Below the pieces are notes generated by a model. The model searched no databases and was not told the origin of the DNA. It saw only the letters and a program-made list of their open reading frames with translations. Below are positions 14,941 through 47,352 of a stretch of 64,000 nt of DNA, piece after piece (the stretch's first letter is position 1; every line of letters starts with the position of its first letter). The position numbers and the translations under genes were made by a program. This DNA is from Isoetes taiwanensis (taxonomy: Eukaryota > Streptophyta > Lycopodiopsida > Isoetales > Isoetaceae): the NCBI GenBank assembly GCA_021234155.1, contig JAJEKV010000051.1:8328105-8392104 (forward strand). The letters run 5' to 3'.

Positions 14941-15685
14941 AGTGATGTGATGTGATGTGTGGTGTGGTGTGGTGTGGTGTGGTGTGGTGTGGTGTGGGTT
15001 GCGTTATGTCCATGGTGTCATGTGGGTGTGTGCATGTTAATGTATGATCTGGAGAATCTCCCCCCTCACCCCACCACACCCCATCTATCCCACCACCATA
15101 GACTACCACCACATCTTTGCGACCACCACATTACCACCACATGCACACACATCCCACCACATCCCACGCCACACCCCTCCACCACCACCACCACACTCCA
15201 CCACCACCACATCACACCACAATCCACAACACCACCACTACACCCCCCCCCACCACACTCCACCACACACCACCACGACCACCACACCCCACCACCACAC
15301 TCCACCACACCACATCATAGCACCACACACCACTACACACACCACCACCACCACCCCACCACCACCACACACACACACACCCACCACCACCACCCCCCCA
15401 CCACCCCCCCCACCACCACGCCCCACCACCACCCACACACCACTCCACCACCACCCCCACCACCACCACACACCACTCCACCACCCCCCACCACCACAAT
15501 CCACCACCACCACCCCCCACCACCACACTCCACACTCCACCATTTGGTGTATGGTGTGTGGTGAATGGTATGGTGTGTGGTGGGGTGTGGTGTGGTGTGT
15601 GTAATGTACACAAAGACTAAGGTGCTCGCTCCGTGAATATGATGAGTGTGGGGCATGGTATGGTGCATGGTTTGGTGTGGTATAC
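14941..15685. repeat. CCA-rich array, left arm
   Basis: GTGGT units (14944-15000), then ACC/CAC repeats (about 15060-15540), then GTGGT-rich sequence (15545-15685). Long ORFs here are His/Pro/Thr or Val/Trp/Gly strings and are artefacts. Confidence 0.95.
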
Positions 15686-15729
15686 ACATCCCAACAGTTT
15701 AGTGTTCATTTCATGCGTATGCTATTGTT

Positions 15730-20529: not shown

Positions 20530-21067
20530 CTCAAATGGTGTGATAGACATGGAATGTGATATCGGTGGATCGCGATTCGCTATCACAACCGGCAACATTT
20601 TTTACCCTCCCATTTCGCACAACGTCCACAAAATGGACAACCTTCATCATCCTCTTCTTACGCCTCGGGAAGCATTGGAAGTGCAGATCTAAAGGAGTGT
20701 CATGACCACCACTACGCCGGAAAAATCTCAAATCTTTGCATTCGAGGTAGCAGCTCCAGCAGTAAGTCTTCACATGCCTTTAGCTCAATTTCAGTTTCTG
20801 TTAATTCCTTATTTAATTGTTTCAGCCCAGGCAACACTGTACCATTTAGCTCTTCATCCTTTAGTTCGCTTACAACCCAACACCCTCTCGCCGCTTTGGA
20901 TTTGTCATGATTGATTGCCATCCGTGCCAAATCAGCTCTAATTTCGATGCTTTATGCTCCATCAACTCAATCTTTCTTTTGATATCATTTTTCCTATCCT
21001 CGTTTGCTTGCAATCGTTGCTTGCATCTATCAAACCTAGCTGATGTTGCAGCCAACCATTCCTTCAC
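20530..21067 (-). pseudogene. Coiled-coil protein fragment
   Basis: Two overlapping minus-strand frames give charged helical sequence: LVKEWLAATSARFDRCKQRL, RKNDIKRKIELMEHKASKLE, then ELNGTVLPGLKQLNKELTET and ELKACEDLLLELLPRM. Heptad-like Leu spacing points to a coiled coil. A frame change near 20,900 separates the parts. The segment starts right next to the right-hand GGT array. Family unknown. Confidence 0.4.
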
Positions 21068-21122
21068 AAGTCTGCCATAGCACTACGTATATGTCAGCCT
21101 CCTAACATAGTAAGCCACGTCT

Positions 21123-21786
21123 TCGATGGAAAACCACAATCACACACCACACAACACAAGGTAGTCTCTACACACCACATACCACACACCACACACATAC
21201 GCCGCAGATGGGCACACACCACACAACACACCGTGGTGGTGGTGGTGGTGTCCGTGGTGGTGGTGGGGGGGGTGGTGGTGGTGGTGGTGGTGTGTGTGGT
21301 GGTGGTGGGAGGTGGTGGGGGCGTGGTGGAGTGTGGTGATGGGGTGTGGGACATGGTGGAGTGTGGTGATGGGGTGTGGTGGTGGTGGGGTGTGGTGTGG
21401 TGGTGGGGTGTGGTGTGGTTGGTGTGGGAGGTGGTGATGGGGTGTGGTGGGTGGTGGTGGAGTGTGGGGTGTGGTGGTGGGGTGGGTGTGGTGTGGTTGT
21501 GGTGGGAGTGTGGTGGTGGTGGATTGTGGTGTGGGACATGGTGGAGTCCGGTGGTGTGGTGTGGTGGTGGTGGAGTGTGGTGGTGGTGGTGGAGTGTGGT
21601 GGTGGTGGTGGAATGTGGTGGAGTGTGGTGGTGGTGGAGTGTGGTGGTGGAGGTGGTGGTGGTGTGTGGTGTGGGAGTGTGGCGGTGGGAGATGGTAGAG
21701 TGTAGTGGTGGGAGATCGTGGGGGGTGTGGTGTGGGACATGGTGGATGCCAACAACTCATCACCACCACACATACCTCATATATCA
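21123..21786. repeat. GGT-rich array, right arm
   Basis: CCACAC-rich lead (21130-21230), TGG/GTG repeats (21232-21745), then a short CACCACCACAC tract (21757-21785). It mirrors the left arm in order and orientation. Confidence 0.95.
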
Positions 21787-21789
21787 TTC

Positions 21790-22560
21790 GCATCCATTGC
21801 ACGAAATGCCCCACGTGATGGCATCATAGAGACACAACATGACAATACACCAACATGATGCAAAATGGTAGTAGACATACCCGATTCTTGAAGTGGATTT
21901 GATGTTACCTTTTACGTGTTGATAGAAACAATCTAGATCAAGCTTGAGATTTTTTCTCGTTGTAACACAACTAATAATTGAACATACCGAATGGCATGTT
22001 TTGGTCTCGAACATTGCTCTGCTTTTCTTTTTGATTGTGAGTTCAGATTGAATGTGTGGTCTAGAGGAACCTGATTTGGTTATTTCCCTATCATCTTCAT
22101 CATCCCTCGCCACTTTTACTATTTTCCTCCTCGTCGGGTTGGATTTGCCTATGCTTTCTCTTGGGTCTAGAAGAACTGCCTCGGCTTTCTCATCGGGAGT
22201 TTTATAATAATCCGAGAAGCTCTTCCACTAATGTAGCCTCCCCTTTATATGCGGATAATAAGCCCTTGCCCAAGTTCCAGAGCCATTCCACCCCATGTAT
22301 GTGGCTTCCCTGTAATTCTTTTGTAAATTTGCATGAACTCTTTGTATTGTTCATTGCTCGATTCTTCAACTGCACAAAGAAAACATATGCCTTAATTTTT
22401 CGGTTTGAACAAAACATTTGGGGAAAATACACGTGAGCCGATTTATTTGGAACTCTGTCACCCCAAAGCTTCTTTTAGATCTTCGTGGGGCACAATCTCT
22501 TGTTTGAGGAGAGATTTCATCGTGTAACCAAGTGGCGCTCAATCCACTCCATTAGGGTTC
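21790..22560 (-). pseudogene. Unidentified coding remnant beyond right arm
   Basis: Minus-strand frames contain WGDRVPNKSAHVYFPQMFC, RKIKAYVFFVQLKNRAMN, HGVEWLWNLGKGLL and then a charged, Ser-rich piece ARDDEDDREITKSGSSRP. The flow suggests one gene read leftwards, perhaps the 5' part of the coiled-coil fragment on the other side of the array. If so the array would be an insertion or an intron. Function not recognised. Confidence 0.35.
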
Positions 22561-31086: not shown

Positions 31087-31245
31087 GATTTTTGGATTTG
31101 ATAGATCTTCAGTCAGCAATTGGTTTCAATGGCATTTGGATTGGCAGTCCGATCACTATTAGTTAAATTTCTTTCTCTCTAATGGTCTCTTTCCCCTGTT
31201 TTCCTTTTTTCTCCCTTTTCGTCATTCAATTTTCTGCATGCCCTT

Positions 31246-32759
31246 TTGTTGTTTCACCCTGAATTTCACGCAATGGTTTCGAGTTTCACAGAAAACCCTA
31301 AAAATTTAGCCTTTCTTCACGCATTTGCCTCCCTTCCCGCTCCAGAAAGAGCCTCTGTTCTCCGGAACCTAAAATCCTTCCAAGAAAATCCTCAGGATAC
31401 CATCCTTTTTGGTAATTTTGCAACTCTGCTTCCTTCAATGGACCCAATTTCTCATCAGGTTCCTTTCTGGGACAATCTCTCTGCTGATCCCGATCACAGA
31501 GGCATTCTTCATCCAATCAATCCAAACACTCAAGTTCCCTTTCCTTATGGAGTTTCGAGAAGGCACCCAGAAATGCGCTCGGATGATGAATTGGATGCTA
31601 GACTTCGAAGGACCAGGCCGCTTCATATTCAAGAAAGGAAGATGAACCTCTACAATGGTATTTCTCTAAATCTTCCTATTGTTCATTCCAAAATTGATGC
31701 TCTTTCACAGTCTGCTGTTATTGTCAAAGTCCAAAAATGTGGAATTAAGCTGGATAAGCTTTGGGCCTTCCTTCTTAACCTAAATAAAGGAATCATAATT
31801 CAGGCTGTTTACTGGCTAAACTTTCCATATATTATGATCGAATGTGGAAATTCTAGATCAGCCAACGTTTTCCTCAATTATGGCCCGCTGACCTATGAAA
31901 CTTCCCAATTGACATTCCTGAAATGGCATCCCAAGCTTGACATTGACCAAATGAACAATCTATGCATTGCCTCTACATCCCTGTTTGGCCTCAATCCTAT
32001 TTACTGGGATGAAGACTGCTTCAAGATCCTCTTCAATTCCATTGGTACTTATATCTCAACAGAGTATTCTCCATCCAGACCCCCAAGAGCTTTTGTCCAA
32101 TTGGATCTGTCCAAAGAAATCCCTCTTTCCATCCCTTTCAAAGATTCCTTTGGAGTAGAATCATCTTTAGCTCTTAGATGGCCTGGACTGCCTTCCCAAT
32201 GCCAAAAATGTCTCCATAAACACTTTTGGTACTCAGACTGCAAATCAAGTTCTAAACCTCAACAAGAAAATAGGTCAAATATGTCTGTTAAAGATAATGT
32301 TAATCAGGCTCGTTCTGTTTTGGGAGATAAAATGGTTGATCAGTCAACCAAGGAAGATCTATCTCAGGGTAATCAGGAAAAGAAAATGGATTCCTTTCAC
32401 AATCTCCCAGAAAATGAGCAATTCAAATGGACCAGGGTAAATGGCAGCTACAAGAGGATTCAGAAACAAAGGATAGTAAGAGAGCAGATGAAGGATAAGG
32501 GCAAAGTGGATGAACTGATTAATTTCACTAATCAGAAGAGGAATAATGGTATAACAATTGGAGAACCTAAGGTTTTGGTCAAAGGGATTATTTCTGGTAA
32601 GCCAAATCAAGCCACAGATGTTTTAAGCATTACCTTAAACAACATCATTAAGGATGCTAAAACTCAGCACAAGGGTCAGTGCTCGTACAGTCTCATTGAC
32701 TACCCTATCAACAACTCAAGCAAGAATGGGTCATTAATTATGAAATCTCAAGGAAAAGC
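31246..32759 (+). pseudogene. LINE copy 1 ORF1, 5' part, interrupted
   Basis: Nucleic-acid-binding ORF1 of a plant L1 element. An N-terminal helical part (FLHAFASLPAPERASVLRNL) is followed by a DUF4283-like RNA-binding fold (VIVKVQKCGIKLDKLWAFLL, YWLNFPYIMIECG, SQLTFLKWHP), then GTYISTEYSPSRPPRAFVQL and the knuckle CQKCLHKHFWYSDC (the copy 2 counterpart is a cleaner CX2CX3HX5C). It then has a Lys/Gln-rich tail. The Copia element cuts it in frame after the codons for SQGK; ORF1 resumes at 38,402. The first plausible start is the ATG at 31,246 or 31,271. Confidence 0.85.
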
Positions 32760-33387
32760 TGTGAAGATATGTCAGGTTATATTATATGCATTGTTTAACA
32801 ATATTGCATGATAAGATTGTGCAGGTCCATGAAGTCATATGCAATATTGATCTATGAGAAGCAGTGGCAGTAGGTCAATAAGGAAGTATGAAGTCAATAC
32901 TTGAAAAAATTAGGTTGGTGGGCTGGTACTACCCGGACGTTGCTACACCCGCCAGAAAACGTCAGATACCCCCAGCCCGCAGGTTTAGGGTTTTGGAAGT
33001 CAAAGTCAACGGATATTTTGGGAAACCTAAATTTATGGACGGCAAGACCTATCTACTCCGTATCTTTAGGCAAGTCGGTAGACTTTCCAGTATAAGGGGA
33101 CGCACAATCTACAGAGGAATGTGTGGACAATCAGGCGGATTAAGATCTAGGAATGCCGGAATATGGCCATACTAGCTTGGTTGATTGATCATAACTTGAT
33201 TTAGATTTTGTGTGAAGTTCATAAGTGCGCAAAGGAATTAGTGACCACAACTTGGCTTCCTTGGTGCTAGATTCTATTGTACTTAAAGACTAAGACATAT
33301 TTTATTGTCTAGAATGGAGAGTTAAACTTTACATGTGTTTGTCTCATCCTTGCTATTGGAATTATCTAAGGGTTCATTAATCTAACA
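32760..33387 (+). repeat. 5' LTR of Copia element
   Basis: 628 bases, TG...CA ends. Differs from the 3' LTR by about five substitutions and a few small indels, for example GGACGGCAAG against GGATTCAAGAAG. Confidence 0.95.
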
Positions 33388-33388
33388 G

Positions 33389-33400
33389 TGGTATCAGAGC
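33389..33400 (+). other. tRNA-iMet primer binding site
   Basis: TGGTATCAGAGC begins two bases after the 5' LTR. Confidence 0.9.
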
Positions 33401-33420
33401 CTTAAAATTCCAGGTGCAGG

Positions 33421-34540
33421 ATGTCAACACGCTTTGGAGCAAATCTCCTTAATTCCATTGAGATATTTAAAGGAGATAGTGGCTTTCAGTTATGGAAGCA
33501 AAGTATAAAGGAGGTATTGGAATTTGAAAATCTATGGTATTTATGTGATGTAAATACACGGTGGTACAAAGAGTGACCGCAATCGGGATTCTAGTGGTGA
33601 TCGTGCGGGGAGGACCTCTTGCTAGTGCTGCTAGCTACATTGCGCGGGGTGGTGCAGTGCGGATCTCCGTGTGCAGGAGGAGCTGCTAGTGCAAGTGTTG
33701 GTGGAGGTACCACCACGAGGACAAGTGCCGATGAGAAAACAAAAAATTATGGAAGCTCAATCAATAATCAGCAGCAAGGTTGGTACTTGTGATTAAGTTA
33801 AAATTAAGAGGCAAATCTCCAGCGAGACATGTGGAAGTATATGATTGAAAATTATGAGATTAAATCATCATCTCAAATAGATGTTTTGGAAAAAAAACTA
33901 AGAAAGTTAAAAGCTCTATGAAAGAGACAATATTACAGAATTTTTAGAGAAATTTGAGTCTATTATTGCTGACCTTGAAGGTCACGGGGGTTGTTCTTAA
34001 TGATGACTACCAATTATTAGCTATTTCTAGAGTCAGTATCTCACAATGCACAACTTGCTACTCTGTTGAGGAATGTTGCCAGTCCAAGGAGCATGCCATT
34101 AAGATGATTCGCATGTAGTTTGAGCAAGGAAAGGATCTTTGATGATGATGAGGCGAAGTCTTTGTATCTTTGGTAAAAAGGTAAGAAATCTTATGATAAA
34201 GGGAAGATAGGTCCATGCTTTAAATGTAACTTTATGGACATTTGAAGATAAATTGTCCCAAGCAAGATAAAGAAATAGTCTATTATAACTGTGAAGGAAA
34301 GGGTCACATGGCAAACAAGTGTCCAAGTCCAAAAAAAAATAAAGGAAAAAGATAAGAAATATTTTGAGGGCAAGAGCGGAGGAGGAAGAAATAGTCCTAG
34401 CTTGAATGTGGTTAAAGAATCTGAGGAGGAAGAACTAGATGAAGATATAGAGGTAAATATCTCAACCAATTGTTTTTCAAAGGAAAAATCTCATAACAAG
34501 AATGTTCTCATTTTAGATTCAGAGTCGAGAAATCGGTAAC
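33421..34540 (+). pseudogene. Copia gag and knuckle, decayed
   Basis: Starts MSTRFGANLLNSIEIFKGDS with FQLWKQSIKEVLE, the usual gag opening. A GC-rich Gly/Arg-like tract (33,560-33,730) unlike the rest follows. The knuckle reads YYNCEGKGHMANKC, with the first Cys of CX2CX4HX4C changed to Tyr. Stops and shifts throughout. Confidence 0.75.
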
Positions 34541-34659
34541 TTCAAGCTCAAGATTGTTGAAAAATTGCAAAGGGGGAGCAAAAGGACATGTCTGATTCGG
34601 GAATGGAGAGTTGAAGCAAATTAAAGATAATGGAATGCTTGAGTTGTTTGATTTGCAAG

Positions 34660-35765
34660 GGAAGAAAGTTATCTTTGGAAAAAGTATTATGTGTGCACTG
34701 GTCTTGTAAGGAATTTAATTTCCATTCTTGGATTAGTAGATCTTGGCTATAAGGTTGTGTTTGAAAGATTGCAATGTAATGTGTTATATGAAAATAAAGT
34801 GAAGTTTATTGGCGTAAGAATTGGGAATCTATTTGGTCTTGATAACATACATTGTGAACCAACTGTTTTTGAATCTTGTAACTATGCCATCAGTTGATAT
34901 ATGGCATGGAAGGCTTGGTCATGCAAACTCCAAAGTCATTGAGTTATTATGTAAGAAAGGATTCATAGAAGCAGATCTGAATCAATCTGGAAAAACTATA
35001 TGTGTAGGATGTGCACTTGGCAAACATAATCGACTAGCCTTTAAAAGATCTAACAAAAGAGCACAAGGTTTGCTGGATTTAGTTCACACTGATTTGTGTG
35101 GACCAATGAATATAACAGGGCTATCTGGAAAGAGATATTTCATGACCTTAATTGACGACTTTAGCAGACATACTCACATATATTGCTTGAAGACAAAACA
35201 TAAGGCAATGGAAGTATTCAAACAATATGTAAATGAAGTTGAGACGTAAACCGCGCGAAAAATCAAGTGTTTGAGGTCCGGACAGGTGGAGAATTTATGT
35301 CGAGAGTTTAAACAATATTGTAAACTTAAGGGAATAAGACGACAACTTACATGTAGATATTCACCTCAACGAGAATGGAGTTGCGTAAAAGAAAGAATAG
35401 AACTCTTCTCAATGCAAAGAGAAGTATCTTTGAAATTCTCGGGGCTTCCAAATTTTCTATGGGAAGAGGCGGTTCAAGCAAATGCCATGATTCAAAATAG
35501 TCCCGCCATCCGTAAGTATACAAGGGGCAATCCACGATATGCTTTGGTCGGGGAAAACAATAGAGTACAATAAGCTAAGAATATATGGGTGCTTAGCATA
35601 CACTCATATTCTGAAGAGCTCGGGGAAGAAATTAGATGACAGAGCCATGATTACATATCTAGTTGGATATGACAAACAATCTAAGGCATTTAGGTTATAT
35701 AATCCAAGCACTAGAAAAATTGTGGTAAGTAGAGATGTAACCTTTGATGAATCTCGAGGTTTATA
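34660..35765 (+). pseudogene. Copia integrase, decayed
   Basis: IWHGRLGHANSKVIELL and CVGCALGKHNRLAF form the HHCC part. LLDLVHTDLCGPM and MTLIDDFSRHTHIY hold the first catalytic Asp. The second block is altered (RSGQVENLCREFKQYC, expected D.G.EF). Then LPNFLWEEAVQANAMIQNS and YLVGYDKQSKAFRLYNPSTR end the domain. Frame changes at about 35,250 and 35,575. Confidence 0.85.
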
Positions 35766-36239
35766 AAGTCTTGATCAAGGAGAATAAAACAGAAGGAGGT
35801 TCTTTGAAAGCATAATTAATGCGAGATAATCTTTGAAAATGATATGACTAATATCAAAATGATTGATAATGATGATGATATATTAGATGATCAGCAAAAT
35901 CGATTGGTGCAGGGGATTGAGGAGAACATTAATGAAGGAGGAGGTGATTACGAAGAAGTGCATTTGCCAAATCCGAGTTCACAAAATGAGCCATCCGAGC
36001 TGTAACTATTGTTGACTTACCTCAAAAGAAGAAAAGAGCTACTTGAAGTAGAGAAGCTGCAACAAGCAAATATAAAAATTGATCCTTTAGTCCATGGTCG
36101 AACAACTTCGAGGTAAGAGTAAAAAGAATTCGAGAATATAGAAGGTGAATTGGATAGTGTATTTGAGATTTTAGCCCACTTAGATCCGAAAATCCCAAAT
36201 ACATATGAAGATGTATTAAACTCAGTGAGAGAAAGGTAA

Positions 36240-37760
36240 ATGGATAAACGCTATGAATGAGGAGATGGATTCATTTCATAATACTAAAACATATGAGCTT
36301 GTTGATAGACCTTGTGGGAAAAATATTGTAGGTAACAAGTGGCTATTGAATAAAAAAGCGGTGTGGATGGGAAGACACCTAGATACAAAGCCGATTGGTT
36401 GCCCAAGGGTTCTCCACGAGAAAAAAAGGTCGGGACTTTGATGAAACCTTCTCTCCATTAGTGAAAATGAATAGCATTAGGATGTTATTGGCAATTGCAA
36501 ATGCTTGTGATTTAGAAGTACATCATATGGATGTAAAGATCGCATTTTTTTTGAATGCAACCTTAGAAGAAGAAATCTTTATGAAGCGGGTTCGAGGATT
36601 TGAACAGGGGAATTGACAAAGTTTGGAAGCTCAATAGAAAAGATATATGGGTTGAAACAAATCTCCTCGTGAATGGTATAAGTGTATGGATGGGTTTCTA
36701 CTACGAGCATGAATTTATTAAATTAGATAATGATGGAAATCAGATAAATTCCAAAGATGGGGAAGAATGGTGTATCATAGCATTGTATGTTGATGATAAT
36801 ATTATGGTAGCAAAAGGGACAACTTGCTTGAATATGTGCAAGGAATTGCTAAGACAAAGATTTGAAATGACTGACTTAGGTGAGTTGAAGAACTTCCTAG
36901 GAGTTGAAATGAGCGAAATAGAAGCGAAGGCATAATAATGCTTACTCAAAAGAAACAAATTCTAGACATGTTGAAGAAATTTAATATGCAAGATTGTAAA
37001 GCTTGCAAAACTCCCCGATATACACTGGTTGTAAATTGTCTGAGAGCATGTGTCCAAAAGATGAAATTGAAAGAGAGGAGATGCAAGCAGTACCATACAG
37101 ATCATTAATTGGATGCTTAGCATATGTGGCCAATTGCACAAGGCCTGATATTGCACATAGTGTTAATATCTTAAGTAGATATAATACTGATCCTGGTAGA
37201 GATCATTGGACTGCTGCAAAAAGAGTCCTAAGATATTTAAAGGGAACTATTGAAGAAGGAATTAAATACACTACAGATAATTTAATTCTTGAAGGTTTTT
37301 GTGATGCAGATTGGGGAGGGAATGTAGATACCAGAAAATCAACTTCAGGATATCTAGTCATGTTAGGAGGTGCACCCGTATCCTGGAAATGCAAAAAACA
37401 ATCTGCCATAGCCATGTCTAGTCAGAGGCGAGAATATCTTCTTTGCCACTTTTATGCTCAAAAGAGATCGTTTGGGAAAGAAGACTGATTATAGAGCTAG
37501 GGTTTGAGCAACCATTGGCTACAAAAGTTTGGTCAGACAGTACAAGTTGTATAGCATTGTCAAAAAATCCAGTTCTACATGAAAGGACTAAACATATAGA
37601 ACTAGAAATGCACTTTATTAGAGATGCTGTCAGAAAGAAATTGGTAAGTATGTTATATTTAAGAACAGAAGAGCAACTAGCAGATATACTTACAAAGTCA
37701 CTGGCAGAACGGAGGTTTAATTATCTGAAAGGCAAAATAATGCATATAAATATAACATGA
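36240..37760 (+). pseudogene. Copia reverse transcriptase and RNase H, decayed
   Basis: NEEMDSFHNTKTYELVDRP leads in. GRDFDETFSPLVKMNSIRML, HHMDVKIAFFLNATLEEEIF and YVDDNIMVAKG (catalytic YVDD near 36,786) give the RT. PYRSLIGCLAYVANCTRPDI, FCDADWGGNVDTRKSTSGYL and HIELEMHFIRDAVRKK give the connection and RNase H, with the DADW Asp kept. About six frameshifts break it. Confidence 0.9.
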
Positions 37761-37767
37761 AGGAGGA
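37759..37767 (+). other. Polypurine tract
   Basis: GAAGGAGGA stands directly before the 3' LTR; it would prime plus-strand DNA synthesis. Confidence 0.8.
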
Positions 37768-38396
37768 TGTGAAGATATGTCAGGTTATATTATATGCATT
37801 GTTTAACAATGTTGCATGATAAGATTGTGCAGGTCCATGAAGTCATATGCAATATTGATCTATGAGAAGCAGTGGCAGTAGGTCAATAAGGAAGTATGAA
37901 GTCAATACTTGAAAAAATTAGGTTGGTGGGCTGGTACTACCCGGACGTTGCTACACCCGCCAGAAAACGTCAGATACCCCCAGCCCGCAGGTTTAGGATT
38001 TTGGAAGTCAAAGTCAACGGATATTTTGGGAAACCTAAATTTATGGATTCAAGAAGACCTATCTACTCCGTATCTTTAGGCAAGTCGGTAGATTTTCCAG
38101 TATAAGGGGACGCACAATCTACAGAGGAATGTGTGGACAATCAGGCGGATTAAGATCTAGGAATGCCGGAATATGGCCATACTAGCTTGGTTGATTGATC
38201 ATAACTTGATTTAGATTTTGTGTGAAGTTCATAGTGCACAAAGGAATTAGTGACCACAACTTGGCTTCCTTGGTGCTAGATTCTATTGTACTTAAAGACT
38301 AAGACATATTTTATTGTCTAGAATGGAGAGTTAAACTTTACATGTGTTTGTCTCATCCTTGCTATTGGAATTATCTAAGGGTTCATTAATCTAACA
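37768..38396 (+). repeat. 3' LTR of Copia element
   Basis: 629 bases, followed by the AAAGC target duplication (38,397-38,401). Confidence 0.95.
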
Positions 38397-38401
38397 AAAG
38401 C

Positions 38402-39305
38402 GAAATTTCAGGTGAATTCCTCTGCAAAGAATTCAAAGGTTACTGCTTCACCAGCAATTATATCTCAGAGTATCTCAGCCCCAAGTGAACCAAGCATACC
38501 TAATGGTCATAAAGAATCTATTTTGACTAAGCCTATAAGTCAAAATACTGAAGTCTTGACTCAAGATTCTTCTCAACATCAGGTCAACCAGCAAATCAAC
38601 TGTCAAAATTCGTTTCAGGTACTATCTGACCTAAATAATAATCTGGATTTTGAGTTAGATAAGAGCAAAGCATGCTCCCCCATTCATAATGTCCTACCTT
38701 CCCCACCAATAACTTCTCTTCTTCATAACATTTCTCATCCCATCCCTATAAATAAGACCTCTCTCCCATCTCTCATTGACCTAGACTCTCCAATGGTGGA
38801 AGATTCTATCAGTCCTCCAAGAATATCCAGCAAGATTGCAGATCAGCTGGCTTCTCTTTAATTTCAAATGTTCCATGAGGAATTTGTCCAGGCTGGTTCT
38901 CAAGTTAAAGAGGCAAGTGAGAAAGATTCTTTGGATGTTGTTCCTGAGACTCCAGAAGACAAAATTGAAGAGCAAAAGGAGCTTCAAGAAAATCCTGTCA
39001 TAAGGCAAGTACCAGATTCTGTTCCATTAAGTACTCTTAATAATAATACTATGTTTCATTTTTATCCTGGTAGTTGCTCTGATTTTAGTGATAGTGAGGA
39101 CTGTGGTTCTGATAAAGAAAATTGGGGAAAAGAAGAATATCTTATGGAAAGTAATACCCAGTTCACTACTTCAGAAAATAAACAGCCATCCAAGAAATCT
39201 GCTAAAAAGAAAGGGAATAATTTGGGAAAGATCTTATCTGCCATGAATAAAAGCCCTGTTCAAAATACTAGGAGTAAGAAGAAAACTAAAAAATTCAGTA
39301 TCTAA
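38402..39305 (+). pseudogene. LINE copy 1 ORF1, 3' part
   Basis: Continues the ORF1 frame after the Copia insertion (KFQVNSSAKNSKVTASP). It is Ser/Pro/Gln-rich to a stop at 38,861, then continues in the next open segment with an acidic patch (FSDSEDCGSDKENW) and a basic end (KKSAKKKGNNLGKI, TRSKKKTKKFSI). Either one stop interrupts a long ORF1 tail or the tail is a separate small ORF. The stop at 39,305 lies 33 bases before ORF2. Confidence 0.7.
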
Positions 39306-39337
39306 CCCTTCTTCTTCATTCCTTTTCTTCTTCTCCC

Positions 39338-40500
39338 ATGAAGATCCTTTCTTGGAATCTTAGAGGCATCAAAGGTCCTCTTAAAAGAAGGCGTGCTATT
39401 GCCCAGATTAGGCTTTATAATGCTGATGTTATTCTCCTTCAAGAGATTAAGCTACCTTACTTTGAATGTAGTAATTTGGGAGACTGGATTTATCCCAATT
39501 CCTCTTCCATTTGGATTGAGTCTAGTAGTGCAAGTGGAGGTCTTGCAATAATTTGGAAGAGAGATCTCAACCATATTTCTCTCCATAATGGTCCTTCTAA
39601 GGCTTGGCAGGCTGTTATTCTTTCCTGCCCCAACTCTACCTTTGGCATTATCAATATTTATGCTCCAACTACTCCCAAGGATAGGGAACCAATCTGGACT
39701 GAGATTAACTGTTGGCTGAGTTCTCAAAATATTGACAACTGGATCATTGCAGGTGACTTTAATAATACTCCTTCTTGGGATCTAAAGTTAGGGAACAAGA
39801 TTAATATGACCAGAGCTGAGAAAGATAATTGGGATTCTCTTATAGCAGATAATGGTTTGATTTATATCCCCTCTTCTTCTGCTACCTATACTTGGTCGAA
39901 TAAGCAAAAAGACAAAGATAGGGTATATTGCACTTTGGACAGATTCTATGTTTCTAATCCCTCCTCAGCCTTTTGGGACAACAGCTATGTCACTAGTGAT
40001 GAAGGCACTTCAATCTCTGATCATCAGCCTCAGTTTCTTCATACTCCTCATATCACTAGAATTCAAAGGCAGGGAAGTACTCCTTATAAGTTTAACTCTT
40101 CTCTCCTTGATAATGAAGATTTCTGTTCTCAATTCACCATGTTCTATGAGGATCTTTCTACCAATATGAATAACTTGGCTCATGAGAATAGGTTTCAGCA
40201 CCAAAGAAGTCATTTCTACTCTAAAATCAAAGCGATTAAAGCTTGGATTAAAAGCTGGTCTAAATCTAGAAATCTCCAATGTAACAGGGAAAAAACTCAT
40301 CTTATGATGATCATGAAAGACATCAGATCCTTACTTCAAGAAGATCCTTCTAATCTAAATCTACATATAGGGGAAGAAATTCTGGAGAGAAAAATCAAAA
40401 GTATTGAAGAAATGGAAGCAAAGGGATCTGCTATCAGGTGTAAAATAAAATACACTAATGACATGGACTCTGGCAGTTCCAAATTCTTCTTTCTTTACTT
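39338..40500 (+). CDS. LINE copy 1 ORF2 endonuclease, truncated
   Basis: AP-like endonuclease domain of L1 ORF2: MKILSWNLRGIKGP, VILLQEIKL (catalytic Glu), GIINIYAPTTPKDRE, WIIAGDFNNTPSWD (catalytic Asp/Asn), CTLDRFYVS and SDEGTSISDHQPQ with the final SDH pair. All expected metal-binding and catalytic residues are visible, so this domain may have been active before truncation. The frame ends at 40,540, with the last codons from the next LINE's 5' end. The reverse transcriptase is missing. It nicks target DNA for target-primed reverse transcription. Confidence 0.9.
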
Positions 40501-40681
40501 GGGAAATGGACACGTCACTTTTCAGCGCCAATTTTCTTGAATTATTTGTCTCATATGATTCAAACATTTTCTTGATCTTGCCTACCCGAGAAATTTCCTT
40601 TTGATCCGAATTTGATCTAATCATCTTGCTGGCCCTGTAGAGGCCCAGCAACCATCCTCTTCATCACCTGATTTCCTTTGT

Positions 40682-42393: not shown

Positions 42394-43164
42394 TCATCTC
42401 ACCAACAACAGGTCTGTTTGCCGGAGCTGGTGCAGCAGCTCGTCGAGTCGATACTCCCTTTCCCTGCACTCTGGGAGGTTTTGGATGTCGCTTAGGAGCA
42501 GGTACTCTTCGCCCTCGCCGATGATGGGGGCTAGGCTTGTGATGCCTAGCCCAATGGGTGGCGCGATCCTGAGAGTTTGCCGGCTTCTTTCGAATTCCTG
42601 CAACTCCTGCTCTGCTAGCCGCTGCTCTTCCGTTGGGTCGAGCTCGACGTAGTCTTCTTATTCCTCTGATTCTTCGTCTTCTTCTCTTCCTTCTTGCTCC
42701 TGTTGGTACTGTAAAAGGAGCTGCTCTGCTGCTGCTATGGCTAATGGGTCCACATCCATGGGAGGGATAGAGGTTTCTCCCATGGGATTTTCGGCACGGT
42801 GGGTGAGAAAAATGGCTAAGGCAGCGTTGAAGGAAAAGTACTTGGTCCTATTGACAGTCAGGACCATTGGCTCGGGCATGCGCTGGGCTTTGTTTGTAAG
42901 GTACTTGGCAATGTTTGGAACATCGCCTAAGGCTGCTTGAAGGGATTGCCTGGGAACAAAGTAACCTATGCAAGGTGGGAGCTGCACTAAAGACGGCCCT
43001 ACCCTAGCTTGGAACTCGGACAGGACTCGGCTATATGCTGGGGTTGCGTGCAAGGTTGCTTGGACATCTATTTCTTTCCTAAAGACTCGGAAGATGTCAT
43101 TGACATCAGCCTCGGCAGCATGGGCACTGGCGCTGTACCATTGCCTGAAGTCAGCAGTGGCCAT
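42394..43164 (-). CDS. Companion ORF to the H3-like gene, one stop
   Basis: From ATG 43,164 a 168-codon frame (MATADFRQWYSASAHAAEAD, VNDIFRVFRKEIDVQATL, VQLPPCIGYFVPRQSLQAAL, NAALAIFLTHRAE) ends in an acidic run (EGREEDEESEE) at a TAG (42,658). It then continues in the same frame with EDYVELDPTEEQRLAEQELQ to the break at about 42,394. LDPTEEQRLA matches LDPSEEQDLA in the H3-like protein, and both genes share promoter parts, so they are related units. No known domain recognised. VNDIF also occurs at the start of histone H2B helix 2, but the rest does not follow H2B. Confidence 0.5.
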
Positions 43165-43276: not shown

Positions 43277-43286
43277 CTATTTATAG
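43277..43286 (-). promoter_or_regulatory. TATA box of the companion gene
   Basis: Minus strand CTATAAATAG, 113 bases before the ATG at 43,164. Matches the plant consensus TATAAATA. Confidence 0.7.
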
Positions 43287-43477
43287 AGAAGGGAAAAACC
43301 CTAATTTTTGGGTGACTTGAAAAACTCTTGGGATTGGGCAATTCTAGTCTATATTGAGGTCCAAATGGGAATTGGAAGACTAATTTGAGGGTTTGAGCAT
43401 GACTGGATTACCTAAGGAACCTATTGCAACAAGCTAGAGATCAATTGGATATGCTATGGTGGCAAAAATGTTGGGAG

Positions 43478-43544
43478 GTCTCACACGTTGTGCCTCGTTC
43501 AAAAACTGGAGTTTAGTTTCTTGACCAGGCGCGACGTGTGAGAC
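43478..43544. repeat. 67-bp inverted repeat, copy a
   Basis: Arms GTCTCACACGTTGTGCCT and AGGCGCGACGTGTGAGAC around a loop with AAAAACTGGAGTTTAGTTTC. First of four equal-length copies; lies about 190 bases upstream of the TATA box. Confidence 0.9.
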
Positions 43545-43677
43545 ATCGGCCCCATTTTGATCAAAACATGTCCAATTTAGGTAAACTAAGGGTGTAAAGA
43601 TGACAGACTCATCAAATTAGGCAGAATTGACCCCTTACTTGGTCAATTTGGAGTTGTTTTGGCCAATTTTGGGCAAG

Positions 43678-43744
43678 GTCTCACACGTTGCGCCTCATGT
43701 AAAAACTGGAGTTTAGTTTCTTGACCAGGCGCGACGTGTGAGAC
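43678..43744. repeat. 67-bp inverted repeat, copy b
   Basis: Same length and arms as copy a, 200 bases further upstream of the companion gene. Confidence 0.9.
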
Positions 43745-43868
43745 ATCTATGTCCTATTTTACTAAAACAAAAGCTATTACATGCTAATTCAACCTATTTA
43801 AGCAAGATTACACATAATCTATTCAAAATTCTTTTGTATTAACAAAATTTTCATTATTTACAAAATTT

Positions 43869-45213
43869 CTAATGGGGTTCTCCCTTGATTATAATGGCCA
43901 AGTGCATGTCCTTCCTCATCAGAGTTACTCGCGTGGGCATGCACCTGCGTGTATAGAGTCTTCAAAATCTTTGCACTATCTTACGTTCACTGTTTCTGAA
44001 GTGCGACAACATCTCGTCTGTTACCCTCATGCTGGTGTTGAAGTCCTGCATCACTTCTCTGACTAGACGGGCAAAGGGGGCGCGGGGGATTAAGAAGCCG
44101 TAGCTGCGTTGGAAGTGCTCCCTTAGTGCTTTTCTCTCGGTCTCCTTCCTGCTGGCTTTCTTCTTGGCTGGCTTCTTAGGGGGCTTTGGCTTCTGTTGGC
44201 GGCCTTAAGGTCTGCTGCTTTGTTGGATGTCCACCCTCGATGGTCCTGGCCCTGTTCTCCTGGTAGTAGGAGTTGTAAGCCTCCCACTTCTTCATGTAAG
44301 CCTCGTGTTCCCTCATCTTTCTCTCGTAGATCTTGACGGGGTCCGTGACATAGGATTCTCGGGCAGGCCATGTCTGTTTCTTCCTGTCCCAAGTCGGATA
44401 TTTAGGGGGTTTCTGCACTGGATCCGACTGCTCCAGGTCGGGGTGCTCCTAGTCGGGTATTGGCTGCTCATCACCTGGGGGTTTAGAAGAGCTTCCACCT
44501 TCGGTGTTGGGGTTGAAGTCTTCGTCTTCAGAGTCGTCAGAGGAGGGCGGGGGCTGGTCAGCTAACCGTTCGGTGATGACGACCTTGGGGTTGGGTTTCT
44601 TTGTTCGCGGAACTTCCTTGAGTTTCCTTGGGCCCACCACAAACTTCCCATTCTTCTTCTTCAGTTCTTCTGCCGCTTTCTCCTCCTCCTCCTCCCTCTT
44701 CCTCTTCTTTTCTTCCCTCTTCCTTTCTCGGCGGCGTTCTTTTGCTTCGTGCTTTTTGATCCACGCCGCGAGGTCTTGTTCTTCGCTTGGATCGAGTGTT
44801 GGCTCCCTTTGCTCCTCTCGCTCCTCAGCCTCTTTCTCTCGAACCCAAGCTTCAAGTTGCTCTTCGATGGTTGGCTCGGGAGTCGGCTGCCTCTGCTCCT
44901 CACGTTCCTCGGCTACCCGATCTTGTTCCTGCTTCTTCTTCCTTTCCTCCTCCTCCACTTCTTGGAGAATATTCTGCATGACGTCCGGCTGCTCTTCGCC
45001 TAGGACCTCTGTTCCCGCATCTGAGTGTGCATCCTCCTCGACCTGCTGGGATCCTTCGCTTTGGTGTTCGTCCGAAGCTGCTCCCTCACTTGATGAAGAC
45101 TGGTCATGCCTGAGAAGGCGCTCCTGAAGCATTCTCTGTATCAGGGCAGGATCATGGGCACTGGGGGATTCGCCTGGGCGGGCCTTCCTGGCAGTTTGTT
45201 TTGTTCTTGCCAT
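43869..45213 (-). pseudogene. Histone H3/CENH3-like protein with giant insertion
   Basis: The start at 45,213 reads MARTKQTARKARPGESPSAH; residues 1-10 equal those of histone H3, keeping K4 and K9 but replacing S10 by Ala. About 300 charged residues follow with two repeats (EEREEQRQPTPEPTIEEQLE and EEREEQREPTLDPSEEQDLA), a Glu/Lys/Arg coiled coil and an acidic SSDDSEDEDF. The end (44,130-43,869) is an H3 fold: KALREHFQRSYGFLIPRAPF, then RLVREVMQDF (H3: RLVREIAQDF), FED, and RVTLMRKDMHLA (H3: RVTIMPKDIQLA). LIPxAPF and RVTLMRKD resemble centromeric H3. Lesions: TAG at 44,449-44,451, a frameshift near 44,190, TGA at 43,962-43,964 caused by an indel pair. A normal H3 is about 135 residues; this would be about 445. 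Own TATA box; lies just inside an LTR element. Sequencing errors could explain some lesions. Confidence 0.85.
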
Positions 45214-45314: not shown

Positions 45315-45324
45315 CTATTTATAG
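45315..45324 (-). promoter_or_regulatory. TATA box of the H3-like gene
   Basis: Minus strand CTATAAATAG, 102 bases before the ATG, identical to the box of the companion gene. Confidence 0.75.
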
Positions 45325-45425
45325 CTTGGGCAATTTTAGGTCAAAATTCAAGTTACTCTATTTAACGTGCCAGGGCACCTATTGACTTAAAACATACACT
45401 TATTTCAGAGTTTTTATAAGCATTG

Positions 45426-45492
45426 GTCTCACACGTTGCGCCTCGTGCAAAAACTAGAGTTTTGTTTTTAGACCAGGCGCGACGTGTGAGAC
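45426..45492. repeat. 67-bp inverted repeat, copy c
   Basis: Arms GTCTCACACGTTGCGCCT and AGGCGCGACGTGTGAGAC; about 100 bases upstream of the TATA box. Confidence 0.9.
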
Positions 45493-45619
45493 AATATACA
45501 TTTTTGATTAATTTACATGATTGAAGCATACTATTCTAACTAAATCTTACCTTAGAGAACTCGATTTACCATGTTACTTTTCTAAAATTCATGAAGTTTT
45601 AAGGTGTTCTTGGCCCAAT

Positions 45620-45686
45620 GTCTCACACGTTGCGCCCTGTTCAAAAACTGAAGTTTAGTTCTTTGACCAGGCGCGACGTGTGAGAC
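45620..45686. repeat. 67-bp inverted repeat, copy d
   Basis: Fourth copy, 194 bases from copy c, matching the 200-base spacing of copies a and b. Confidence 0.9.
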
Positions 45687-45879
45687 CACCTTGCCTGAGA
45701 AGGTTTTGGCTCATTCTTTTTAGTCTTATTATGTTCCAATTCACTTAATTGTTACTAGCTTAGCATAAACTACAAAAATGAGAAAAAAAAAATTCCCATT
45801 TTTCGAGGTTTGAGGATCCTATCAAGTTAGTACTACTGGAGGCATGGTCAGTGCTTTGCTCTTGGTCTCCAAGAACATT

Positions 45880-45891
45880 GCTCTGATACCA
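45880..45891 (-). other. tRNA-iMet primer binding site
   Basis: Minus strand TGGTATCAGAGC, one base after the LTR end. Shows that the DNA to its left is the interior of an LTR retroelement. Confidence 0.85.
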
Positions 45892-45892
45892 C

Positions 45893-47352
45893 TGTGACGT
45901 CCCCTACTCGTATACGATGCCCGCACCGTATACAAACAGGAGTTCATCCCCCATACCAGCTCCATACTGATACAGGGCCCTCCACATATCACTGTGACCG
46001 TCTGGGGTCCCCAGTGGGAAGAATGAAGGGGTCATTTTACCCCGTCTCCCTCGGGGCCTACCTAGCTGCGGAAGCGTAAACATACATGTCAGTAACATAA
46101 ACATCATAGACCCACCTCGAAGGGTGACACATCAACATCTGCATAGACAAAGATCAGCACAATGCAAGGGGAAATCCTACCCAAGGCTCAGACTCCAGGG
46201 AATGACTGCCAAGCTTGGTCTCCAGAGTTCATTGCAGATAGAATCATGACAATGGATTGGGCTGGCATAAGAACATGGCAATGGGTTGTCCACTCCATCC
46301 GCCCCTCCTGTGCACACTTTGCAGAGTAGGTTGAAGAGTATTGAGACCTGACTGTAGCCCGCCGGATGCATAGCCAAAAGGGCTACTCCTGGGTTGCATC
46401 TCCCCAGTTCCGATGGGGCAGGTAGGGATCCTCCATGCTGACTCAAGGCGACTAGAGGGCCACTGCCCTTATTCGACTTAACCCACTGGAAAGTGAACTC
46501 CACTCCACGGGTGTCGAGCCCATGCCTTACCCACACTCAGTGGCAAGCCATTAGACCTAGTCTGCTGTGATCCCCGGTAGGCCTTACACACCAGAGGGAT
46601 CGATCATGAGTCAGAACACGAACCTCCTTCTGAGCCAGTCTGGCCCCTCCACCCACAACCAGGTGTGGTTCTTGTACACAGGGCCGAATTCTAGTAATGC
46701 ACTAAGAGGGACTAGCTAGGAGCATTATCTACTAAGCTTTAAGTCTCTACCCCCCTTCCCAATACAATGAGTCCACAGAAGACATCCGTCCATCATATCA
46801 ACATAAGTAATAAGAACTAATCTAATTCATAGAGTTAGGTTCTTTAGTTAGAGTCAATCTCAGGATCTGCTTGGCTACTAAGGGTGAGTTAATAGGCTAA
46901 ACCTACTGGTTCGAAGGCTGGAATAAGGTTTAGGCTATTCAATCGACCAAATACCTGATCCCTGGTCACTCCTCTCGATCCGAAGATGTCCATGTCTCTG
47001 TTCTGCTTTGGGATGCGGTCGGAAGGATGATCTGACAAGTTGGGGCGCACGGGCAGATCGTGGGAGTTGGAATTGACTCCTCAGGCCCGCGAATCGGAGC
47101 TCGGAAGGTCTGTGGGCGAAAGAGGGAAAGTTAGGGTTTGGTGCCTTATGTAGGCTATCAGTTAGGTTTAGGGTTTCCATGACCCTTGGTCTACCTTTAA
47201 TGATTGCTAAGTGTGCGCACCATTGCAAGTTGCCCCCTAGGGCGCCCTTGCTTGGGTACACGTTGGCGTACACGTCGATTAGGATGGCGTGTACGCGTGA
47301 CGGTGCAGTACGGTATACGTGTTGAAACCATATATCGTACTGGAATGTCACA
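45893..47352 (-). repeat. 5' LTR of the H3-carrying element
   Basis: Minus strand begins TGTGACATTCC and ends GGGACGTCACA, an inverted TGTGAC/GTCACA pair typical of plant Ty3/gypsy LTRs, directly before the primer site. 1,460 bases; no second copy in the window. Confidence 0.75.

Follow-up and report, generated by a model that had tools for sequence, protein, structure and literature searches.

The histone H3-like gene in the 64-kb stretch of Isoetes taiwanensis DNA analysed here (the window) belongs to a mobile element: by its sequence setting the gene, referred to below as ORF1, is accessory to a Ty3/gypsy chromovirus with many copies in the genome. It is close to certain that in the family to which the window copy belongs (family A) ORF1 is an element-borne gene with an H3 fold that has been kept under selection. 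The reading favoured here, with a probability of roughly 0.6, is that this accessory gene supplies an H3 variant for host nucleosomes, by which the element may insert a protein of its own into plant chromatin.

A damaged H3-like gene in a truncated LTR retrotransposon

A sequence-only reading of the window had described a frame opening with the tip of H3 and followed downstream by an H3-type fold, in a copy damaged by a TAG, a frameshift and a TGA. The frame reading and the matches to histone H3 bear out this observation, damage included. MARTKQTARK opens a minus-strand frame at 45213, and the first open stretch (44449-45213), which covers the tip and a portion of the insertion, runs for 254 residues before a TAG ending at 44449. 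The inserted region, for which relatives have similar sequence, continues in the same frame (44176-44448, minus strand) to a TAA at 44178-44176. The H3 fold (43869-44204, minus strand) lies in a shifted frame that runs from 44204 to 43872, contains a single in-frame TGA and closes with a TAG at 43871-43869. Pieces of the window fold matched the histone family PF00125 at 2.5e-9 (80 residues, 37.9 bits) and 3.9e-11 (111 residues with an X at the stop, 43.7 bits), above the cut-off of 26.4 bits, and the best match in the PDB reached 1.4e-6, histone H3 being named in all matches listed (60 of 167). A Pfam search of the 254-residue first open stretch alone gave no family, and the structure predicted for the window fold piece alone was too poor for use (mean pLDDT 49.2).

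The carrier of this gene is a truncated LTR retrotransposon on the minus strand (47352-42409). Its 5' LTR of 1460 bp (45893-47352) starts with TGTGACATTCC, ends with ACGTCACA and could be aligned with the related loci L009, L012 (from 47156) and L024. It is followed by the primer-binding site TGGTATCAGAGC (45880-45891), a 12-mer that is identical in 15 of 20 related loci and presumably of the initiator Met tRNA type. Two hairpins (45618-45689, folding z -8.1; 45424-45495, z -9.5) and a TATAAATA box 110 nt before the ATG (45316-45323) precede ORF1. Two further hairpins (43676-43747, z -7.9; 43476-43547, z -7.6) and a second TATAAATA box, 121 nt before the next ATG (43278-43285), lie between ORF1 and a second gene, ORF2, the spacing of both boxes being kept in the relatives. 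The N-terminal 168 residues of ORF2 end at a TAA (42658-43164, minus strand), and homology to the relatives continues to 42409, where collinearity breaks off and LINE sequence comes next; among the five loci compared, this end fell at 42409 for L009, L011, L012 and L024 and at 42425 for L022. Only the 5' LTR of the element is present, and gag-pol of this element family was not found within the 64-kb window. The LTR, the primer-binding site, the collinearity with relatives and the broken homology together identify the window protein as ORF1 of a truncated LTR retrotransposon.

Family A relatives in the genome

A search of the genome (1,658,258,908 bases in 1110 contigs) with the 254-residue ORF1 query gave at least 159 matches. 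Twenty family A loci of 9.9 kb were fetched, picked mainly for long open frames, so that the following counts are not rates. The sequence-only reading had asked for copies in the same genome with tip and fold in one frame, and 16 of these 20 loci have them, L013 with its last fold residues shifted; 15 of the 16 were taken into the analysis. Their frames are 407-467 residues long and place 305-365 residues between tip and fold in the 15 copies, which confirms a large insertion and corrects its earlier estimate of about 300 residues. Twelve of the 16 have the exact tip MARTKQTARK and the remaining four deviate from it at a single residue, and S10 of H3 is replaced in the family. In canonical H3 some 34 residues link the ARTKQTARKS tail to the fold; the long gap and the replaced S10 therefore point to an H3-like variant rather than to canonical H3.

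The ORF1 of L012 matched PF00125 at 1.5e-28 and H3 in the PDB at 4.3e-29, and the matches listed in the latter search (60 of 175) were all named histone H3. A degenerate DNA pattern matching the tip plus a following A or P and an R, built so that ordinary H3 with its S after K9 does not fit, had 190 exact matches genome-wide and none for the reversed control. As in the window, many copies are damaged.

Parts of the element across copies

Family A elements are arranged in the order ORF1, ORF2 and gag, with the pol domains further downstream. These domains were pooled over several copies with frames broken in places, and no single copy is claimed to be intact. The gag (PF03732, Retrotrans_gag, 3.3e-18 in L009, above its cut-off) is accompanied by a weak zinc-knuckle match, and a protease was found above the cut-off in L010 (RVP_2, 1.1e-9). 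In L029, RVT_1 (6.1e-41), RT_RNaseH (5e-34) and Integrase_H2C2 (1.6e-19) all exceeded their cut-offs, and the integrase core rve stayed below its own (6.3e-4). The integrase ends in a chromodomain (PF00385, 1.6e-10 in L029 and 5e-10 in L030) that, in the alignment made for this analysis, is missing two of its three cage aromatics. This cage pattern is given for plant group II chromodomains in PMC3350952, which states that their partner is not known, and on the present reading of its sequence the element chromodomain looks like a member of that group.

With regard to the ends of the element, L030 has a purine-rich tract upstream of its 3' LTR, and L009/L031 shows a target-site duplication, CTTAA, flanking TGTGACG...ACGTCACA on both sides; the 3' end of this copy also carries partial, rearranged LTR repeats. 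Such a duplication is clear in one of the three copies having downstream sequence. None was found for L012/L030, in which the start of the 5' LTR is replaced, and in L011/L029 the LTR is shared over 42 nt only. The LTR distances of 0.020 for L009/L031 (1398 sites) and 0.034 for a second pair (1253 sites) make the insertions look fairly recent.

Promoter-like boxes, hairpins and ORF2

Counted from the ORF1 start, the TATAAATA box lies 108-119 nt upstream in each of the 17 loci where this start is recognisable, out of 20 examined; counted from the ORF2 start, the distance is 120-122 nt in 16 of the 17 loci with such a start and 74 nt in the remaining one. The 198 kb examined contain 47 such boxes. 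By sequence the box is TATA-like, and its copies before ORF1 and ORF2 represent putative promoters belonging to these genes themselves. A third box follows ORF2 in 6 of the 20 loci (L010:7962, L011:7797, L020:7515, L022:9029, L013 and L021 (minus strand)), and in L010, L011 and L022 it stands about 100 nt before the gag frame, as if gag-pol also had a putative promoter of its own.

The ORF1 box and the ORF2 box are each preceded by a pair of hairpins, with z values of -7.6 to -9.5 in the window, and four left arms were found in 16 of the 20 family A loci. Among 61 distinct sequences out of 70 of the commonest length (73 in all), one base pair is changed on both sides in 20 sequences and five others in 6-9, and other pairs are broken in up to 17 sequences, so that the inverted repeat is only partly kept. 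The hairpins are possible protein-binding sites or sources of small RNA.

ORF2 (43164-42658 in the window; L011:6324-7748) is a conserved protein encoded next to the H3-like gene in two or more groups of elements. Searches of Pfam and PHROGs with ORF2 found nothing, its PDB matches were at chance level (best 0.39), and the predicted structure of the window piece alone was too poor for use (mean pLDDT 38.5).

A second group of H3-bearing elements

A canonical H3 query scored 150 places in the genome, 15 of which are host H3 genes with 96-98% identity over 136 residues; the other 135 show 71-86% identity, and many of them lie in open frames of 420-567 residues. Twelve of these group B and C loci were fetched, mostly picked for long frames, and ten had one. 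Group B combines a different N-terminal part with a nearly canonical H3 fold, and by hhalign the N-terminal parts of B and C are not detectably related to that of family A (probability below 1%). L040/L045 represent a third form (C), in which the N-terminal part is related to that of B (6.3e-27) and a gag relative lies downstream (1e-26).

The group B locus L044 has an LTR end, a primer-binding site, ORF1 and ORF2 in this order, and its ORF2, with one internal stop, shows a relation to the family A ORF2 (hhalign 1.8e-9, blastp 4.5e-8). From these sequence relations, the pairing of ORF1 with ORF2 seems to predate the separation of the groups. The L044 stretch yielded no gag or pol, and B may thus be non-autonomous, or broken at L044. 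A DNA pattern built on the last part of the B fold had 400 exact matches genome-wide and none for its control; taken with the 190 tail matches, this puts the H3-bearing copies at several hundred at least. The group C fold at L040:348-1829 carries H87 and L90, taken here to be the signature of plant H3.3 and hinting that this fold was captured from an H3.3 gene.

Selection and conserved fold residues

Comparison of codons shows purifying selection on ORF1. In 15 of the 20 family A loci (without L010, L013, L020, L022 and L023, in which the start is lost, the end shifted or the frame broken), the median dN/dS was 0.06 for the fold (76 of 105 pairs usable), 0.05 for the first 11 codons (73 of 105) and 0.20 for the middle (104 of 105), with single-pair maxima of 0.31, 0.42 and 0.32 for fold, tip and middle, respectively. 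In nine of the 12 group B and C loci (without L037, L040 and L043), taken as the family B copies, it was 0.02 for the fold (36 of 36 pairs) and 0.12 for the part before it (35 of 36). Pairs with dS of 0.05 or less or with saturation were excluded, which removed 29 of the 105 family A fold pairs as too close or saturated, and L026 was retained despite an internal scrambled stretch. The family A folds differ by 0.106, 0.070 and 0.379 at codon positions 1, 2 and 3. The copies were picked for open frames and their pairs are not independent; the choice of open frames alone would not yield such ratios at a dS near 0.8.

Identity to H3 residues 44-135 is 48-58% in family A and 84-86% in families B and C. 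At the fold positions checked, presumably those of the H3-H3' interface and the DNA contacts of nucleosome structures, 19 of 20 family A loci and 10 of 12 group B and C loci could be counted. R69, R72, R83, C110, K115, R116, D123 and L126 are unchanged in all 19 family A and all 10 B and C folds, and H113 and I130 are kept in 18 of the 19. R63 is lost in 19 of 19 family A folds (to P) and F84 likewise (to V), and T118 and M120 are lost in 2 of 19 each. The B and C folds equal H3 at 23 of 24 checked positions in 10 of 10. Family A has thus kept the H3-H3' interface and most DNA-contact residues, and its grip on DNA may be weaker in view of the lost R63 and F84 and of the T118 and M120 losses in some copies.

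Proposed role of the H3-like protein

The sequence-only reading had proposed either an H3-like subunit with a large extra arm in chromatin or a mimic that binds readers of the H3 tail, and the former is still the best reading, to which the LTR retrotransposon setting, unnoticed at the time, has to be added. In such a model, ORF1 would give an mRNA of its own and its product would lose the initiator Met, which would leave a free ARTKQTARK end. The fold would then pair with host H4, and the resulting unit would probably be laid into host nucleosomes, where the acidic/basic arm and the tip could change chromatin at or near the element. The most likely gain would be weaker silencing or the marking of sites for the element integrase, both about equally likely. 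Retention of the tetramer interface speaks for genuine pairing with H4 and against mere mimicry of the tail, and since family B lacks the tip, the fold appears to be the shared working part. Against entry into nucleosomes it may be held that an arm of more than 300 residues beside the fold could hinder wrapping. A wider scenario is offered tentatively, and is doubtful as a whole: a chromovirus lineage would have acquired a host H3 gene and remodelled it into a chromatin protein bearing an arm peculiar to the element, which together with the chromodomain integrase and ORF2 would form a three-part system that writes its own nucleosomes, either resisting silencing or marking landing sites.

The rival that survives best, though it is rather unlikely, is a soluble H3 mimic that would stay off nucleosomes and weaken silencing of the element by tying up H4, H3 chaperones or the enzymes and readers of the H3 tip. 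It would account for a tip as constrained as a median dN/dS of 0.05 in a protein whose fold has lost R63 and F84, and for an insertion that sets this tip far from the fold, but the preservation of the H3-H3' interface and of most DNA contacts speaks against it. Furthermore, family B keeps a near-canonical fold and not the tip, and a tip decoy can therefore not be the function shared by the groups. Improbable is also a role as a nucleoprotein of the element particle, in which the fold, with H4 or as dimers of its own, would coat the element cDNA before or during integration. The gene does share its element with gag and pol; however, the element already has a gag of its own, which shows a weak zinc-knuckle match, and an H3 tip and an H4-facing fold would be of no evident use in a particle.

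Relation to centromeric H3

Equally improbable is a CENH3-derived factor that would steer the element to centromeres. The sequence-only reading had noted a centromeric likeness, and the resemblance itself is real: the family A motifs LIPxAPF and RVTLMRKD are of a kind presumably typical of plant CENH3. Descent of the fold from CENH3 is nevertheless not supported, as its loop 1 has the canonical length and a tree with a single CENH3 did not join the two. From L70/V71 to L92-Q93 the H3 stretch is 24 residues long; the same length was measured in 18 of 19 family A folds (one was unmeasurable) and in 10 of 10 B and C folds, against 26 in an Arabidopsis CENH3. In the tree, built without L013, L026 and the loci lacking a usable frame, the element folds were not placed with CENH3, which is represented only by this one long-branched Arabidopsis sequence. 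In addition, group B has canonical H3 motifs where family A has LIPxAPF and RVTLMRKD, and group C nearly so. The best 150 matches to this CENH3 fold began with the host H3 genes and went on with element folds; no host CENH3 gene was identified among them, and one split by introns would escape this search.

Finally, a captured but functionless H3 gene carried along by an active element would fit the many damaged copies, that of the window included, and is very improbable given fold medians of dN/dS of 0.02-0.06 and a promoter spacing that is fixed across divergent copies.

Relation to known systems

The H3-bearing element can be regarded as a crossing of two known kinds, and a wholly new kind is not claimed. 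With plant chromoviruses of the group II chromodomain type it shares the LTRs, a Met-tRNA type primer-binding site, gag, protease, reverse transcriptase, RNase H, integrase and the C-terminal chromodomain, but it carries two additional genes between the 5' LTR and gag, both with a TATA-like box in front, and one of them is an H3. Bracovirus H4, described in two sources as a singlet viral histone that joins host nucleosomes (PMC9145170; PMC5423620), is likewise a single core histone with a changed tail in a mobile genetic entity. Such histones reside in viruses or virus-derived DNA circles, whereas the carrier here is a reverse-transcribing element and the histone has an insertion of more than 300 residues between tip and fold. 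That LTR elements can gain and keep an extra gene is seen from orchid Gypsy elements with an ORF for a 2-ODD RNA demethylase, which is an enzyme acting on RNA, in contrast to the histone found here (PMC9289625). Nudivirus Orf1 is also a long protein with a C-terminal histone fold; the passage available describes an H4-H3-like doublet of 30-40% identity in a DNA virus and does not mention an H3 tip (PMC9145170). CENH3/CENP-A shares the H3-type fold, motifs like LIPxAPF and RVTLMRKD and a non-canonical N-terminal region with the element protein, which differs in its canonical H3 loop-1 length, its canonical H3 tip and its separate place in the tree with one CENH3.

Among the literature matches listed (titles and the starts of abstracts, with few subscription papers and no bioRxiv preprints), there was none on a retrotransposon-borne core histone. 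In their main texts as retrieved, the stem 'retrotranspos' occurs 0 times in a review of viral histones (PMC9145170) and the word 'histone' 0 times in the Isoetes taiwanensis genome paper (PMC8566536). Protein database searches gave no relative, and the fold query shared words with 26 candidates only; plant proteins seem to be few in this database, and the result is thus uninformative on rarity. The viral contigs scanned held no relative.

Retrotransposons are usually viewed as targets of chromatin and not as its makers, and an LTR element with many copies and an H3 of its own under strong selection offers a route to how elements manipulate nucleosomes. It also bears on how far the H3 tail can be rebuilt before the nucleosome fails and on the targets of plant group II chromodomains. 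Counts of H3 genes in this genome, and antibodies against the H3 tip, may catch element proteins and call for caution.

Other features of the window

A LINE, recognised by eye from its ORF1 and endonuclease, occupies 31183-40540 and is split by an insertion at 32760-38396, which has direct repeats of 630 bp, 98.4% alike, at its flanks and a copia-like pol inside. Simple-repeat stretches at 14956-15705 and 21044-21829 leave several frames open on both strands.
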